Both the position numbers and the translations under genes were made by a program. Shown piece by piece: positions 28,177 to 37,742 of a stretch of 37,742 nt of DNA. Each line of letters starts with the position of its first letter. The stretch's first letter is position 1. Below the pieces are notes generated by a model. It made no database searches and was not told the origin of the DNA. It saw only the letters and a list, made by a program, of their open reading frames with translations. Where the stretch lies: positions 1-37,742 of IMG/VR virus record IMGVR_UViG_3300044809_000123; one strand, given 5' to 3'. This DNA comes from a virus.

Positions 28177-28291
28177 CGGCGCATTGAAGCGCAGCCAAGA
28201 CGGCTGGGCAAATCACCTCTGTAGGCGCGGTTAAGAGTGGTAAAACACCCCCGGGGTGCGCTGCACCAACGGTGGTAACCCTCGAATTGCG

Positions 28292-28330
28292 TTGCGATTC
28301 AGTAACAACTTACCTATATGATTCGTTACT
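28292..28330 (+). promoter_or_regulatory. Candidate promoter and operator of the PanA-like operon
   Basis: TTGCGA (28292-28297) is followed after 17 bases by TATATG (28315-28320), a plausible sigma70-type promoter giving a ~25-base leader before ATG 28353. An inverted repeat AGTAAC (28301-28306) / GTTACT (28325-28330) spans the -10 element, as expected for an autoregulatory operator. Confidence 0.45.
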
Positions 28331-28352
28331 TGGACTGGAAAACGGGTGTGGC

Positions 28353-28805
28353 ATGCCTCTAACTGCAATGCAGGCGGCCCGCAAAATCTGCGAGCACGGC
28401 TCGTGGAAGATCACCAATCTCGGGCTGCAAAAGATTCTCTACATCGCTCAAATGATATTCATGGGCGAGAACAACGGCGCGCGCCTAGCTGATACTGAAT
28501 TTCAGGCGTGGGATTACGGCCCCGTCGCGCCGGATGTGTACAGGCGCGTCCGCATGTTTGGCGCCGGTCCAATTCAGGACATTTTCTTTAGTGAGTCGCG
28601 CGCGAATGATGGCCTACGGGAATCTTTCCTGCAAAACGTCTGCACTCACTTGACCGGGAAAAAGCCGGGTGAGTTGGTGTCGATTACGCATTGGAAGCAT
28701 GGTGCTTGGGCAAAGAATTATCAGCCCGGCAATCATGGTATAGTAATTCCGGACAGGGACATTCTGGATGAGTACCGGTGCCGAACCGAGCAACGAGCCA
28801 ACTGA
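28353..28805 (+). CDS. Panacea-domain (PanA/SocA/DUF4065) antitoxin-like protein
   Basis: The 150-residue protein is essentially one Panacea domain. It shows the conserved helix KITNLGLQKILYIAQMIFMG (residues ~19-38), then EFQAWDYGPVAPDVYRRVR with the W-x-YGPV signature, and LVSITHWKHGAWAKNY with TH...AW near the C-terminus. PanA proteins neutralise diverse toxins encoded next to them; related SocA domains also act as proteolytic adaptors. ATG 28353 is preferred over a start at 28272 because the candidate promoter lies between them. The next gene overlaps it by 38 bases and encodes a membrane protein, the arrangement expected of a toxin-antitoxin pair. Confidence 0.8.
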   Translation: MPLTAMQAARKICEHGSWKITNLGLQKILYIAQMIFMGENNGARLADTEFQAWDYGPVAPDVYRRVRMFGAGPIQDIFFSESRANDGLRESFLQNVCTHLTGKKPGELVSITHWKHGAWAKNYQPGNHGIVIPDRDILDEYRCRTEQRAN

Positions 28806-29151
28806 CGGCACCCCTCCTGCTGTAAGGCCCATCTCCGAAATTCTAGCACGCGGTGCAGACTCTCTGCCGCCGTTGCCGGTTGATGAAAGCGCTGCGGCCT
28901 TAGAACTGCGCCTCCAAAAAGAAACAGACGGCCGGCAAGAGGATAAGTTTTACGCAATAGCCATCGGCACCGTACTCGCCGATATGGCCGTGTTTCAACA
29001 TCTGCCTTGGGTAGGAATTGTCTGCATTTTCCTGTTGGAAATCGTGATTTTGCTCGGCTTGGCTAAGCGACTTGGCAGTGAGCATGTCACCATGCTTCTT
29101 GACTATTTGTTCTATCAGATTTGCGAAAAAATCGGCTTGGGCCGCAACTAG
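28768..29151 (+). CDS. Two-span membrane protein, candidate PanT-type toxin
   Basis: The 127-residue protein has a soluble N-terminal half (residues ~1-58) and hydrophobic helices at ~60-76 (YAIAIGTVLADMAVF) and ~80-97 (WVGIVCIFLLEIVILLGL), then a C-terminal amphipathic helix. AGGGA lies eight bases before ATG 28768. It starts inside the PanA-like gene. Known PanA partners include small membrane toxins that depolarise the membrane, so toxin function is a reasonable inference, but the sequence itself shows only membrane topology. It is larger than typical membrane toxins, so an exclusion protein is an alternative. Confidence 0.6.
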   Translation: MSTGAEPSNEPTDGTPPAVRPISEILARGADSLPPLPVDESAAALELRLQKETDGRQEDKFYAIAIGTVLADMAVFQHLPWVGIVCIFLLEIVILLGLAKRLGSEHVTMLLDYLFYQICEKIGLGRN

Positions 29152-29520: not shown

Positions 29521-30186
29521 CTAAGCCGCTGCCTGATCTTCCTTCGCTTCGCCCCGCATTACGATTTTCAGTGCCTCATCGGGCAATGGCCGCTGCAGGG
29601 CCGCGGCTTCGTTCCACGGCGCTCGCATCCACACATCGCGTTCTTCGTCGCTGCTCAAAATCACCGGCATCGCCTTCGGGTGTATCGGCTCAACGATCGC
29701 GTTCGGCGCCGTCGTCAGGAATCCGTAGACCAGGTGCGGGCCGGGGATAGGCTTCGACTTGGTCCCGCGGTCGCCCTTGAACTCAGTCCAGATCCCGGCG
29801 AAGGCGAACAGCGGCCGGCCTTCATTGAGCGCAAACCAGACCACGTCTTTCTTCTTCGTCGCGGGGTTAGGCTCCGGAGCGTATTCGGCGAAGCTGTTCG
29901 CGGGGACCAGGCAGCGGTTTTCCGGCCTCAGCCAAGCCCGCCAGTGCGGGGAAGCGGTGTTCCTGATGTTGGTCACCGGGTAGTTGCTCGGGGCGCGTGG
30001 GGGAGGCGGCATGCCCCATCGCATGGTGGCCAGTTCGGTCCCGTGGTCGGTGTTGCGCACCACCGGCGCCGGATAGTCCGGAAAGACTCCGGGCATCGGC
30101 GGGAGGTTGCCGACGTAGCGGTTCATCACGCGGAAGAGCGCAATGATGGCGGCCTGGTTCGTTGTAATCGAATAGAGATTGCACAT
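29521..30186 (-). CDS. SRAP-domain protein (YedK/HMCES family)
   Basis: The 221-residue protein forms a covalent link to abasic sites in single-stranded DNA, shielding them during replication, and can also cleave the link. Catalytic Cys2 directly follows the initiator Met ([10 protein letters not shown]), which fixes the start. N73 ([13 protein letters not shown]), E101 ([10 protein letters not shown]) and H169 ([12 protein letters not shown]), the conserved active-site residues, are all present. The family is universal and often carried by phages and plasmids. It lies in a minus-strand run of two conserved rhizobial genes and directly abuts the transposase remnant. Confidence 0.92.
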
Positions 30187-32075: not shown

Positions 32076-32672
32076 CTATCGCCAAATCGGCATGACATCG
32101 CCATCCAAAGCGTCGATCGCGCGACAGACGCTCCGCTTGCTGATCCCGTAGGTGCGCCACCGACTGCTTCTGAAATAGTTCCCGGTCTTAGCCATCGCGT
32201 CGAGATCCACCATCGTGAGATTAAGGTCAAAGGCCCGCGCGCGAATCGCATCAATAACCGTGATGCCGGTGGGCGCATATGGTCTCCGGATCATCGTGAA
32301 GCCCTTATAATTTGCCATCCGTCGAATTTGGGGCCATCGCAGTCCCGGAAATGATACGAGCAATTCATCTCTCGTTTGTTTCGGGTACAGTCGCCGCAAG
32401 CGGCTGATCTCTGCAGCTGTCCAACGATGGCGAGCTTGAGCAATGCCGAGTACGACGACTCGTTTCTTGATCGCATCATACGATCGCTGCTTCAGCACTT
32501 TGCACAAGGCGTGATAGTCGGGATAAAGACGCCGAAGCGTCTCATCTTCGTTCGCGGTCCACAGAAGCCCGCTCGGACTTCGACCTGTTCGCGCGATCTG
32601 CGCTTTTGCGCGGTCGGAACGAGCGAGGGTTTCTGCGATTGAGCCCAGATGCATTCGGCTGGGGGCCCCCAT
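32076..32672 (-). CDS. Tandem SANT/Myb-like DNA-binding regulator
   Basis: The 198-residue protein has two ~42-residue Myb/SANT-like repeats. Residues 37-78 read LLWTANEDETLRRLYPDYHA, then LKQRSYDAIKKRVVVLGIA. Residues 83-125 read RWTAAEISRLRRLYPKQTRD, then WPQIRRMANYKGF. A C-terminal segment (~137-198) contains a possible helix-turn-helix (LTMVDLDAMAKTG, SKRSVCRAIDAL). Proteins of this make-up look like phage DNA-binding regulators. It is divergent from the 32816 gene across 143 bases containing a palindrome, the layout of a genetic switch. The start codon lies in a GGGGGCCCCC palindrome (32661-32670) that could mask initiation. Confidence 0.7.
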   Translation of the reverse strand: MGAPSRMHLGSIAETLARSDRAKAQIARTGRSPSGLLWTANEDETLRRLYPDYHALCKVLKQRSYDAIKKRVVVLGIAQARHRWTAAEISRLRRLYPKQTRDELLVSFPGLRWPQIRRMANYKGFTMIRRPYAPTGITVIDAIRARAFDLNLTMVDLDAMAKTGNYFRSSRWRTYGISKRSVCRAIDALDGDVMPIWR

Positions 32673-33671: not shown

Positions 33672-34199
33672 TCAGCGTATGATCCGCCGGACGATATCAA
33701 AGGTTCGAACGGTATCGCGACTGTCGGTGAGGCGGACACGAATTGTAAACTGTAGCTCAAGACCTGGTGTGAGGTTGTCGTTCTTGCCGTCGGTTACTCC
33801 CGACAGCCGCGCCTTCATTGTTCCCGCCGCCTTTGGAGCGATCGTTCCCATGCGGCGCAAGCTTAGAGACGATCTCAGCCTGTCGATGCTCTGCTCGGAA
33901 CTTGAAAAGTAAAATTCTCCCGCTTCCAGGGAAGGCAGGACGGTGATGTCCAACGGCACGATGTTGGATTCGGTGCGATTGAGCACGGAGATCGTCACCG
34001 TGGCGCTAGACGCACCGGCCGGGACAATATCGACATCGACCGTCGGTTCTTTGTCGCCAATCTCACGGTTTTCTTTAACGGCGTTCAAATCGTATGAGCG
34101 TTTTGCAATGTAGACGCTGGCGCCTGTGGCTAAGAGACCGAGGGTTGCAATAACTGCGGTCCAGTGTTGGGTCGTGATTCTCCACCAGCGGGCCGTCAT
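33672..34199 (-). CDS. Membrane-anchored beta-domain protein (175 aa)
   Basis: The 175-residue protein has one transmembrane helix at residues ~13-32 (WTAVIATLGLLATGASVYIA), a short helical linker, then a ~120-residue beta-rich domain (EPTVDVDIVPAGASSATVTI, then NIVPLDITVLPSLEAG, then LELQFTIRVRLTDS), predicted immunoglobulin-like. It ends in RTFDIVRRIIR. The start ATG overlaps the stop of the 38-residue gene (ATGA). This is the fourth and last gene of an overlapping minus-strand operon led by an RHH protein. Function unknown; the anchored beta domain could bind a partner at the membrane. Confidence 0.6.
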   Translation of the reverse strand: MTARWWRITTQHWTAVIATLGLLATGASVYIAKRSYDLNAVKENREIGDKEPTVDVDIVPAGASSATVTISVLNRTESNIVPLDITVLPSLEAGEFYFSSSEQSIDRLRSSLSLRRMGTIAPKAAGTMKARLSGVTDGKNDNLTPGLELQFTIRVRLTDSRDTVRTFDIVRRIIR

Positions 34200-34312
34200 T
34201 TCTTTTTGCGGGGTGCGCGCAACGGCTTCGCTGTCCGCGTGTCCAGCGTTTTTATGCGCGGCTGCAGCATCTTCACGCGCGGCTTTTTGCGAGGCGTCTT
34301 GGGTTCGCTCAT
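34196..34312 (-). CDS. Very basic 38-residue peptide
   Basis: MSEPKTPRKKPRVKML at the start and PLRAPRKKK at the end make this 38-residue product strongly basic (more than a third Lys/Arg). Both ends overlap neighbours by exactly four bases (ATGA at 34309-34312 and 34196-34199 in minus-strand reading), the main evidence that it is translated. It could bind nucleic acid or the acidic partner proteins, or merely couple translation. Confidence 0.5.
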   Translation of the reverse strand: MSEPKTPRKKPRVKMLQPRIKTLDTRTAKPLRAPRKKK

Positions 34313-34527
34313 TTTTTCAAATCCGTTTTTTCGATCAAGCCGCTTCGATTCAGGCCCTGAACCAAGTCGTGCAAATCGACGTTGCGGAGTAGTTCCAAGA
34401 CGCTGTCAAACTTCACCACCAACGACTCAGGCAGATTTCTCTGTAGCGTGTTGACTCCGGTAAGGGCACTGTTGATGAGCCGAACCGCTTCGGTGTGCTC
34501 CGGGCCCTTGGCCGGTGGCTCGCTCAC
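34309..34527 (-). CDS. Small helical protein (72 aa) of the RHH operon
   Basis: The 72-residue, mainly helical protein (TEAVRLINSALTGVNTLQRN, then LPESLVVKFDSVLELLRNVD, then LVQGLNRSGLIEK) starts at the ATG overlapping the RHH stop and ends overlapping the next start. It does not resemble RelE, ParE, MazF, HicA or other toxin families I can recognise, although its place after an RHH gene is that of a toxin. Function unknown. Confidence 0.6.
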   Translation of the reverse strand: MSEPPAKGPEHTEAVRLINSALTGVNTLQRNLPESLVVKFDSVLELLRNVDLHDLVQGLNRSGLIEKTDLKK

Positions 34528-34733
34528 TTGCCCTTCGCCTTCAGCCCGATCTCGACGAGCCGCCGAATGGCCTCTGAGCGGCCGGGCACGTCATCCTGCT
34601 TTACTGCCCAAGCGTCAATCTGTTCAATAAATTCGTCGGACAGCCGCATCGTGCGCACCGGATCCTTTCCGGTCGCCCGGCGACCGGCGCCAGTCCTTTT
34701 GCCGCCGATGGTTTTAGGTATTGCCTTTTTCAC
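34524..34733 (-). CDS. Ribbon-helix-helix (CopG-type) DNA-binding protein
   Basis: The 69-residue protein has a basic flexible N-terminus (GGKRTGAGRRATGKDP) and a ribbon-helix-helix domain at residues ~27-62: strand VRTMRLSD, helix EFIEQIDAWAVKQ, helix GRSEAIRRLVEIGLKA. RHH dimers bind DNA with the N-terminal strands and usually repress their own operon. The palindrome GGGTATTACCC lies five bases upstream of the start codon. It leads four genes joined by four-base overlaps. It may be an antitoxin-like regulator. Confidence 0.8.
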   Translation of the reverse strand: MKKAIPKTIGGKRTGAGRRATGKDPVRTMRLSDEFIEQIDAWAVKQDDVPGRSEAIRRLVEIGLKAKGK

Positions 34734-34737
34734 AAAT

Positions 34738-34748
34738 GGGTATTACCC
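34738..34748. promoter_or_regulatory. Palindromic operator candidate for the RHH protein
   Basis: GGGTATTACCC is an 11-bp palindrome just upstream of the RHH gene. A related site AGGTATTGCCT lies inside the gene's first codons (about 34715-34726), and the half-site ATTACCC recurs at 34823-34829, directly before the divergent 34830 gene. The spacing suggests that both divergent units could be controlled together. Confidence 0.45.
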
Positions 34749-34777
34749 CAATCAGGCTTGAAAAACAAGCGGCTCGC

Positions 34778-34798
34778 CGCGGTGCTGATAACACCGCG
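34778..34798 (+). other. Leader hairpin upstream of the 34830 gene
   Basis: CGCGGTG (34778-34784) pairs with CACCGCG (34792-34798) around the loop CTGATAA, ending 32 bases before the start codon. Possibly a transcript leader structure; no T run follows. Confidence 0.4.
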
Positions 34799-34829
34799 AC
34801 GGGCCTGACCCGCACCATGGAGATTACCC

Positions 34830-35324
34830 ATGCCGCAAGCTGTACACAGCAATAGCACAACTGCGCCTGAACCGCCTCCGTCAGAACACGTCATCAACAC
34901 CACACTCGACCCCATGGGGCGATCTGTGGACATCTTCGTCCGCTCCGCCTTCACGCCCGACCAGATCGCGGAATTTACATCCGTTTTTGTCGCTCGGCAT
35001 TTGATTGCCGACGAGATCGAGCGGTTGTTGGCCGTGTTGGATCAGCTCGACGGCGACGACGATATTGAGCTGAACGTAGCCGGTCGTGGGGATCCCCGCG
35101 TCGACGACGCCGAAGATGACGGCGCCGACGCCGAACCTTCCCTAGCCGGTTTCGGGACGCCCGGTGAGAACAGCTTTCTTGTCGACCGAGAACTCGACGA
35201 CTGCGACCTGGAGGACGGGCACGATCGCGAAGAGGATCTGTCTGATCGCGAGCCGTCGCTGGGCTGGACCGTCGACGGCGTCATGGCGGGATTCGACGAC
35301 CAGGAGGCAACCAGCCATGTGTAA
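34830..35324 (+). CDS. Acidic EPSLGW-type rhizobial protein (164 aa)
   Basis: The 164-residue protein has a helical N-terminal half (SVDIFVRSAFTPDQIAEFTS, then EIERLLAVLDQLDGDDD) and a very acidic C-terminus (DAEDDGADAEPSLAGF, then DRELDDCDLEDGHDREEDLS, then REPSLGW). The EPSL-x-W motif in an Asp/Glu-rich tail is a hallmark I recall of a widespread Bradyrhizobium family of unknown function. GGAG lies seven bases before ATG 34830. A 12-codon frame from 34817 overlaps the start in another phase. The next gene overlaps by eight bases. Confidence 0.75.
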   Translation: MPQAVHSNSTTAPEPPPSEHVINTTLDPMGRSVDIFVRSAFTPDQIAEFTSVFVARHLIADEIERLLAVLDQLDGDDDIELNVAGRGDPRVDDAEDDGADAEPSLAGFGTPGENSFLVDRELDDCDLEDGHDREEDLSDREPSLGWTVDGVMAGFDDQEATSHV

Positions 35325-36391: not shown

Positions 36392-36658
36392 ATGCCCCGT
36401 CAAGTTGCGCTTCCTCCGACGCTAGCGCCGCGCCTGATCGCTCGCGAAGCCGCCGCAGCGTTCGTCTGCCTCAGTCCCAATACATTCGATGACCTTGTAA
36501 AAAAGGGCCTGATGCCAAAACCCCGCATACTGGGGGAAAAACGCCGCGCCTGGGATGTCCGCGAACTCGACGCCGCGGCAGACGCCCTGCCGCATGAAGG
36601 TGGAGAGCCGGTCGTCGTCGGAAAGGACGAAGGCTGGGAGGAAGAGCATGCCACGTAA
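36392..36658 (+). CDS. AlpA/excisionase-like helix-turn-helix protein
   Basis: The 88-residue protein has a winged-helix segment at residues ~16-66 (RLIAREAAAAFVCLSPNTFD, then LVKKGLMPKPRILGEKRRAW, then DVRELDAAADAL). This is the MerR/AlpA-like layout used by phage excisionases and integrase regulators: a helix-turn-helix, P-x-P turn and a W-x-x-x-E-L helix. An acidic C-terminal tail follows. It overlaps the integrase start by 11 bases, which supports an Xis role controlling excision. ATG 36392 (with GGTGA upstream) is chosen over an in-frame GTG at 36371. Confidence 0.75.
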   Translation: MPRQVALPPTLAPRLIAREAAAAFVCLSPNTFDDLVKKGLMPKPRILGEKRRAWDVRELDAAADALPHEGGEPVVVGKDEGWEEEHAT

Positions 36659-37742
36659 ACTCCCGCCGCACGTCGAGCGCAACCACGTCAAGGGACACAC
36701 CTACCTGTCCTTTAGGATCGGCAAGGGGCCGCGCATCCGGTTGCCGAGTGATCCGTCGTCCGTCGCATTCCGCGAAGCCTACGTGGCTGCCGTGGCCGGT
36801 GAATCGGCGCCGGCGCGGGCGGTGCTGCAGAAAGACGCGCCCGGCGCCATTGGCGCCCTGGTGACCAGCTATATGCAGACCAGCGCATTCATCTCGCTGA
36901 GGGATACCAGCAAGGCCGGCTACATGACTCGGTTCGAAACCATCCGAGTCGACCACGGTCACCGTGCCGTCGCCGGGCTGACAAAGGATCGCATCAACAC
37001 CGTCATACTGGCGCCGTTCGCCGATCGGCCGGGCTCGGCACTCGACACTCTGAAAAAGCTGCGCATCCTGATACGGCACGCGATCGAAAAGGGACTGCTC
37101 AAGCACGATCCGTCCGCTGGGATCAAACGGCCGAAATCGAAACCAATCAGGGCTTGGACCGATGGCGAGATTGCGGCCTATGAAGCGCGGTGGCCGCTCG
37201 GCACAAAACAGCGCACGGCATACGCGCTGATGCTGGGCGTCGGCACCGCTCGAGTCGACGTCCACCGGATGACCTGGACGCAAGTTGATTCTGCCGGCGT
37301 CGGCTACACCCGCAACAAGACGGGCGTGGCCGTCGATATCGGGCTGGACACCGGCCTGCGCGCCGCACTGGACGCCGCGCCGCGCTCGCATGTTTGCATC
37401 ATCACAACCGAATTCGGCCGGCCCTTCACGGTGGACGGTTTCAGCGGCTTCATGAGGGACGCCATGAAGGCGGCTGGCCTGCCGCTCGATTGCAAGCCGC
37501 ACGGGTTGCGTAAGACCCTCGGCCGGAAGCTCGCCGACGCCGGCGTGTCCGCGCACGACATCATGGCGGCGCTCGGCCACACGACGCTCGCACAAGCCGA
37601 ACTCTACACGAAGGAAGCCAACCGCAGGCGCGGCGGACAGCGCGCCGTCACGCAGCTCAATGATCATAAAGCGAACATCCTTTCCCAAACCGCTTCAGAG
37701 CGTTTGGGGAAAGTGGTCAAAACCGATGGAAAATCAGGATGA
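36648..37742 (+). CDS. int: Tyrosine-family site-specific integrase
   Basis: The 364-residue protein integrates and excises the phage by strand exchange at att sites. The core-binding domain (~residues 60-160) precedes the catalytic domain with R202 (GVGTARVDVHRMTW), K224 (YTRNKTG), H285 and R288 (KPHGLRKTL), H311 (LGHTTLAQ) and the nucleophile Y320 (ELYTKEA): the complete R-K-HxxR-H-Y set. GGAGG lies six bases before ATG 36648, deciding it over the earlier in-frame ATG. It overlaps the Xis-like gene. The stop is the last codon of the window, so the attachment core, if downstream, is not visible. Confidence 0.93.
   Translation: MPRKLPPHVERNHVKGHTYLSFRIGKGPRIRLPSDPSSVAFREAYVAAVAGESAPARAVLQKDAPGAIGALVTSYMQTSAFISLRDTSKAGYMTRFETIRVDHGHRAVAGLTKDRINTVILAPFADRPGSALDTLKKLRILIRHAIEKGLLKHDPSAGIKRPKSKPIRAWTDGEIAAYEARWPLGTKQRTAYALMLGVGTARVDVHRMTWTQVDSAGVGYTRNKTGVAVDIGLDTGLRAALDAAPRSHVCIITTEFGRPFTVDGFSGFMRDAMKAAGLPLDCKPHGLRKTLGRKLADAGVSAHDIMAALGHTTLAQAELYTKEANRRRGGQRAVTQLNDHKANILSQTASERLGKVVKTDGKSG

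Follow-up and report, generated by a model that had tools for sequence, protein, structure and literature searches.

Several described systems resemble parts of the locus reported here. Integron gene cassettes are series of unrelated small genes with a short repeated sequence between them, and prophage morons are accessory lysogenic-conversion genes that lie beside the integrase and vary between close phages. Autoregulating ribbon-helix-helix (RHH) repressors of the MetJ/Arc/CopG type are small proteins with palindromes at their own promoters. At rhs loci, the tail is exchanged and displaced old tails are left downstream (Koskiniemi 2014, PMC3967940).

We analyzed a stretch of 37,742 nt (positions 1 to 37,742 of IMG/VR virus record IMGVR_UViG_3300044809_000123), referred to as the window, in which an RHH gene heads a series of overlapping minus-strand genes adjoining a phage integrase gene. 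Judged from the sequence, a temperate phage here probably carries a cargo operon controlled by an RHH autorepressor, with coupled cargo that would be exchangeable. The features of the locus are as follows.

36555-37742, plus strand: phage integrase gene (PF00589), adjoining the module at the right end of the window
34830-35324, plus strand: divergent gene (164 aa) with a promoter region common with the RHH gene; leader MPQAVHSNST, variable body
34771-34805, minus strand: main hairpin of class B, GGCCCGTCGCGGTG-loop-CACCGCGGCGAGCC, a conserved feature ahead of RHH genes
34756-34770, minus strand: small hairpin GCTTG-TTTTT-CAAGC, between the main hairpin and operator 1
34738-34748, minus strand: predicted operator copy 1, GGGTAATACCC, overlapping the expected -10 region of the RHH gene
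34717-34725, minus strand: predicted operator copy 2, GGCAATACC, lying in RHH codons 3-6 at a spacing of 22 bases from copy 1
34733-34524, minus strand: RHH gene, operon head (69 aa, GTG start); beta strand VRTMRL, C-terminus RSEAIRRLVEIGLKAKGK
34527-34309, minus strand: p72, a 72-aa helical protein whose GTG start overlaps the RHH stop (GTGA)
34312-34196, minus strand: p38, a very basic 38-aa peptide with 15 K/R and the motif PRIKTLDTRTAKPL
34199-33672, minus strand: p175, with one predicted transmembrane helix (about residues 12-34) and an Ig-like beta sandwich
32076-32672, minus strand: p198, beyond p175

With its small RHH protein, the palindromes at that protein's own promoter and the PF01402 matches in its family, the locus is like the MetJ/Arc/CopG repressors. 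Unlike in those repressors, a second copy of the site lies inside the coding sequence, a conserved hairpin stands upstream, and the many copies in one genus show joint diversification of sites and beta strands. The locus family also shares with the orphan toxin-immunity arrays of Rhs/CDI systems a conserved head, an exchangeable tail, and older tails downstream with a fragment of the head gene. The head, however, is a 69-aa DNA-binding regulator and not a large secreted or delivered toxin carrier, the tails are whole coupled genes and not toxin domains, and the fragments are about 30-70 bases long. Tails preceded by a 3' fragment of the head were found in the locus family and were not seen in the window. 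As in prophage morons, the accessory genes of the window lie beside phage genes and are absent from close relatives, but the RHH head and its regulatory element are common to chromosomal copies. Finally, unrelated small genes in series with a short repeated separator recall integron cassettes; here a coding gene contributes its 3' end as the separator, whose boundaries vary, and the hairpin stands before the head instead of between genes. We found no published description of such a locus in the literature on RHH proteins with Bradyrhizobium, prophages or cassettes.

All four minus-strand frames (RHH, p72, p38 and p175) are present as an earlier note on this DNA had described them, each overlapping the next by four bases. 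The note had given ATGA for every junction; the junctions read GTGA, ATGA and ATGA, so the first does not agree. By codon usage, the annotated frame is the best of six for RHH, p72 and p175, and p38 is too short to decide. The RHH, p72 and p38 proteins all end with a lysine codon followed by TGA, which makes an A/GTGA overlap automatic. The overlap alone is therefore weak evidence of design; what matters is the open frame after each Lys-TGA junction and not the overlap itself.

Relatives of the RHH protein occur in 113 of 242 Bradyrhizobium genomes (E<=1e-6) and more thinly across the order, in 19 of 347 genomes at a stricter cut-off. Because of this distribution, the phage probably infects Bradyrhizobium or a close relative of it. 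The family is recognized as predicted ribbon-helix-helix by profile PF01402, matched by 6 of 12 members (best 1.3e-4); the window protein alone falls under the Pfam cut-off (E 0.12), and it matches PHROG transcriptional repressor 4738 with an E-value of 2.9e-6. A structure model of the monomer (pLDDT 69) has helices 33-45 and 52-68 in the expected place and leaves undrawn the strand, which pairs only in the dimer. A match to the RHH query at locus L003 was rejected, as it lies inside a terminase-like frame. Some RHH proteins (L153, L171, L214, L220 and L229) carry a C-terminal extension ending KGPxEFxxxRxD. At L220, an RHH 3' fragment directly follows this extension, which resembles an in-frame cargo insertion.

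Hairpins upstream of RHH genes fall into two sequence classes, A and B. The double hairpin of the window (34756-34805), which the earlier note had missed, belongs to class B and has a predicted free energy of -32.7 kcal/mol (z = -5.1). In class A, eight pairs are changed on both sides, pairing stands at 94%, and none of 500 shuffles was as good. A class A covariance model run on eight genomes, with the best 150 candidates per genome scored, gave 12 hits, every one with an RHH gene just downstream. The hairpin as a dispersed repeat was rejected on this result, and its position upstream of RHH heads is not that of an attC-type hairpin at each cassette boundary. The same model matches 10 of 15 RHH loci of other genera in the order, some of them weakly, and gives no match in the window, whose hairpin is of the other class. 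Rfam holds no family for the hairpin.

The palindrome that had been reported beside the RHH start is real. It reads GGGTA-A-TACCC, with 5-bp arms round a centre base, and is the sole match in the window on both strands, 0.20 being expected with up to one mismatch. Relatives do not conserve the half-site said to recur before the divergent gene, and this half-site is probably due to chance. The copy in RHH codons 3-6 had been missed, and the window thus has a pair of sites, GGTAATACC (within 34738-34748) and GGCAATACC (34717-34725). Such pairing is general: in about 50 RHH loci, a short palindrome stands right before the start codon and a second copy lies within the first codons, the site sequence itself varying by locus (GTAATACC, CGTAGTACG, GTAAAC, GTTAAAC, GATAATC, GGTACACC and others). 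Among 52 hairpin-anchored loci, the 9-mer before the gene and the one inside it match at 8 or 9 of their 9 positions in 65% of comparisons within a locus versus 14% between loci. The mean within-locus agreement was 7.90 against 6.63 after permutation, the top of 200 permutations being 6.92. Of class A, 27 loci have copies matching at 8 or more of the 9 positions, and in every one the sites are 31-33 bases apart. In class B the spacing was 22 bases in four loci (window included), 34-35 in two and 50 in one, so that most spacings are about two or three helical turns (22 or 31-35 bases).

The operator also varies with the RHH beta strand to a degree that overall similarity does not account for (partial Mantel r 0.28, p 0.0005, 39 loci), with the following correspondences.

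Beta strand SAVR/TAVR: operator GTAAAC
Beta strand MGFR: operator GTTAAAC or GCTAAAC
Beta strand VGVRM: operator GATAATC
Beta strand RTFR/RTMR: operator GTAATAC
Beta strand TAIR/TSIR: operator GTAGTACG

This covariation is the evidence that the sequences offer on the predicted recognition of the palindrome through the strand. A consensus scan gave no sigma-70 promoter, and a Shine-Dalgarno sequence is absent before the RHH start of the window. Because operator 1 covers the place of the -10 region and the Shine-Dalgarno sequence is absent, the RHH transcript is likely leaderless and self-repressed. We propose that the RHH protein would bind both copies of its own palindrome, one over the promoter before the start and one in the first codons. 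The two predicted operators would lie on the same face of the helix, and binding would shut off the operon and perhaps the divergent gene. The downstream genes may be translated by stop-start coupling from the RHH gene, as their overlaps suggest. The earlier reading of a regulated operon with a membrane protein appears to hold in view of the RHH family, the conserved paired operator-like sites and the single predicted transmembrane helix of p175.

In most of about 50 loci, the divergent gene starts 80-101 bases from the RHH start, with the hairpin between them. These genes have a conserved leader (M-x-x-A-D-x-V-x-S-T-P-P) and a variable body, with twin-arginine-type signals and acidic 'DEPSLG' proteins among them. 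The leader MPQAVHSNST of the window resembles that of other module copies (MxxADSVHSTPP). At L164, L169, L176 and L212, for example, the leader MTQADSVHSTPPxNTS stands before unrelated bodies. The left side of the module may thus exchange its gene as well.

Downstream of the RHH heads, the cargo is inconstant. Fifty first downstream frames are mostly unrelated by BLAST, with just three groups of more than one member. Many short membrane or exported-looking proteins are included, and the first frame overlaps the RHH gene by four bases in 21 of 52 loci. On the minus strand of L152, the first cargo is a 192-aa protein with an N-terminal hydrophobic helix and a probable beta domain, which is like p175 in build and not in sequence. 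A recognizable RHH gene was found in just 2 of 30 related phage records; in two related phages, the gene lies close to the integrase and has different cargo. The phage whose integrase is the nearest (L065, 88%) has two unrelated genes behind its RHH gene, and these too are joined by 4-base overlaps. In the one whose terminase is the nearest (L240, 92%), a relative of p198 (38% identity) comes directly after the RHH gene, and p72-p38-p175 are absent. Because the p198 relative directly follows the RHH gene there, p72-p38-p175 are either an addition between the RHH head and p198 or were lost from the L240 phage. For p198 itself there was no Pfam match.

Pattern scans of viral and genome collections for p72 and p175 found nothing, and a six-frame search of whole genomes was needed to find relatives of p175. 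That search gave no relative of p72 in 242 Bradyrhizobium genomes. Weak matches to p72, all but one in a single family at an isomerase N-terminus (which we take to be the sugar-phosphate isomerase of KpsF/KdsD type), were rejected as chance. A motif of p38, PRxxxLDTRxxKPL, is also present in HNH nucleases, at their N-terminus, and in a few small separate frames. The E-values against the nucleases are 0.004-0.08 per genome over 242 genomes and not significant alone, and we treat the common DTR motif as a lead only. Loci with PRxxxLDTRxxKPL are L058, L060, L064, L056 and L002:3104-3448, and the motif may be a common interaction tail of phage proteins. For p175, seven clear relatives (47-55% identity over the alignment) were found in the 242 Bradyrhizobium genomes and one more among 296 genomes of the family. 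One relative, at L035, comes immediately after an RHH gene that has a related divergent gene, and others lie downstream of RHH 3' fragments at L032 and, weakly, L033; the rest, which are most of them, have no RHH end nearby. The structure model of p175 has a pLDDT of 55 with generic Ig-like matches (ApaG and adaptin ear), and was set aside as a guide to function. The predicted membrane helix and Ig-like domain could fit a role in the envelope or in exclusion, at low confidence. As the cargo of this phage we take p72, p38 and p175, of which p175 would most likely sit in the inner membrane and might equip the lysogen with an accessory trait, for instance by excluding other phages.

We then searched for remnants of RHH genes with a profile of their last 66 bases, counting matches in loci where a full RHH gene is present. 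The 24 fragments found all lie downstream and on the same strand, 2-1082 bases away; none was upstream or antisense in searched flanks of 205 kb upstream versus 246 kb downstream. If strand and side were random, the chance of this outcome would be about 3e-14 (27% to the power 24, independence assumed). A whole-gene profile gave a few weak, mostly internal matches elsewhere, one of them on the opposite strand (E 0.003). Some cargo is common to a locus with a full RHH gene and one with a fragment: L186 cargo occurs at L032 and L181, L188 cargo at L032, and L169 cargo at L220. Many loci were fetched for holding an RHH gene, which biases counts of cargo-fragment adjacency and affects the strand asymmetry less. 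L032 was fetched through p175 and not RHH, and it has cargo known from other RHH loci right behind fragments. The one-sided fragments suggest a head that exchanges its tail by recombination near its 3' end, with old tails downstream. Cargo would be replaced or stacked in this way, leaving 3' fragments between older cargo. Because the breakpoints vary (fragments start at different points), homologous or illegitimate recombination is a better fit than the action of a site-specific enzyme. No RHH fragment lies between or after the window's own cargo genes, and its cargo may therefore have arrived otherwise; what places the window in the family is its head, not any visible trace of exchange.

The fragments could instead derive from tandem duplication of whole modules followed by decay, a process that their variable boundaries and the tandem pairs of RHH genes at L010 and L004 would fit. 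On that account, 5' halves, hairpins and operators should be left among the cargo genes as well. However, profiles of the first 110 bases of the gene and of the upstream element gave 88 and 89 matches, all of them within full modules, and we regard this origin as rather unlikely. For the window in particular, p175 and its neighbours might be ordinary lysogenic-conversion genes that came in by illegitimate recombination, with the RHH gene as an unrelated neighbour. The adjoining integrase, the absence of the genes from the nearest phages and the lack of an RHH fragment among the cargo agree with such an arrival, but RHH genes head coupled operons in many loci and p175 has a relative directly behind another RHH gene (L035). 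Mere neighbourhood is thus an unlikely explanation.

RHH antitoxins are usual in type II toxin-antitoxin loci, and a small coupled gene behind the RHH gene, the overlap and autoregulation would all suit a locus in which the RHH protein is the antitoxin and one coupled product the toxin. It had been noted before that none of p72, p38 and p175 resembles a known toxin, and our searches bear this out, with no toxin family match to any of the three in Pfam, PHROGs or PADLOC, or to p72 and p175 in NCBIfam. A constant partner gene is likewise absent, the roughly 50 first cargo genes being mostly unrelated and many of them membrane or exported-looking, which leaves a toxin-antitoxin locus very improbable. 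The earlier note had favoured one dedicated membrane complex, drawing on the strict overlaps and on a set of DNA-binding, helical, basic and membrane parts. It had itself named lack of conservation of the 38-aa and 72-aa frames, and p175 without RHH, as findings that would speak against the proposal, and this is largely what we found. Because p72 and p38 lack conservation and most p175 relatives have no RHH gene next to them, RHH-p72-p38-p175 do not form a conserved complex, and we consider the proposal extremely improbable.

A phage cargo operon under an RHH autorepressor thus remains our preferred reading. As a tentative extension, the RHH genes of Bradyrhizobium and its relatives might serve as a gene-capture platform. 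Phages and chromosomes would gain and stack coupled cargo by recombining preferentially at the RHH 3' end, and co-evolved RHH-operator pairs would prevent cross-talk. If true, this would explain why, in the chromosomes and phages of rhizobia, unrelated small genes, many of them membrane or exported, share a single type of repressor. Such a short, fixed capture point could also help as a marker in finding unknown accessory and defence genes, and the loci offer dozens of natural RHH-operator pairs for reading the specificity code of RHH proteins.

Elsewhere in the window, a plus-strand gene at 28272-28805 has a SocA/Panacea-type antitoxin domain (PF13274, E 1.9e-12) and overlaps a plus-strand gene for a 127-aa protein with hydrophobic stretches (28768-29151). 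The two are a possible Panacea toxin-antitoxin pair in the late accessory region of the phage. A gene for an SRAP (HMCES-type) protein lies on the minus strand at 29521-30186 (PF02586, E 1.4e-23).
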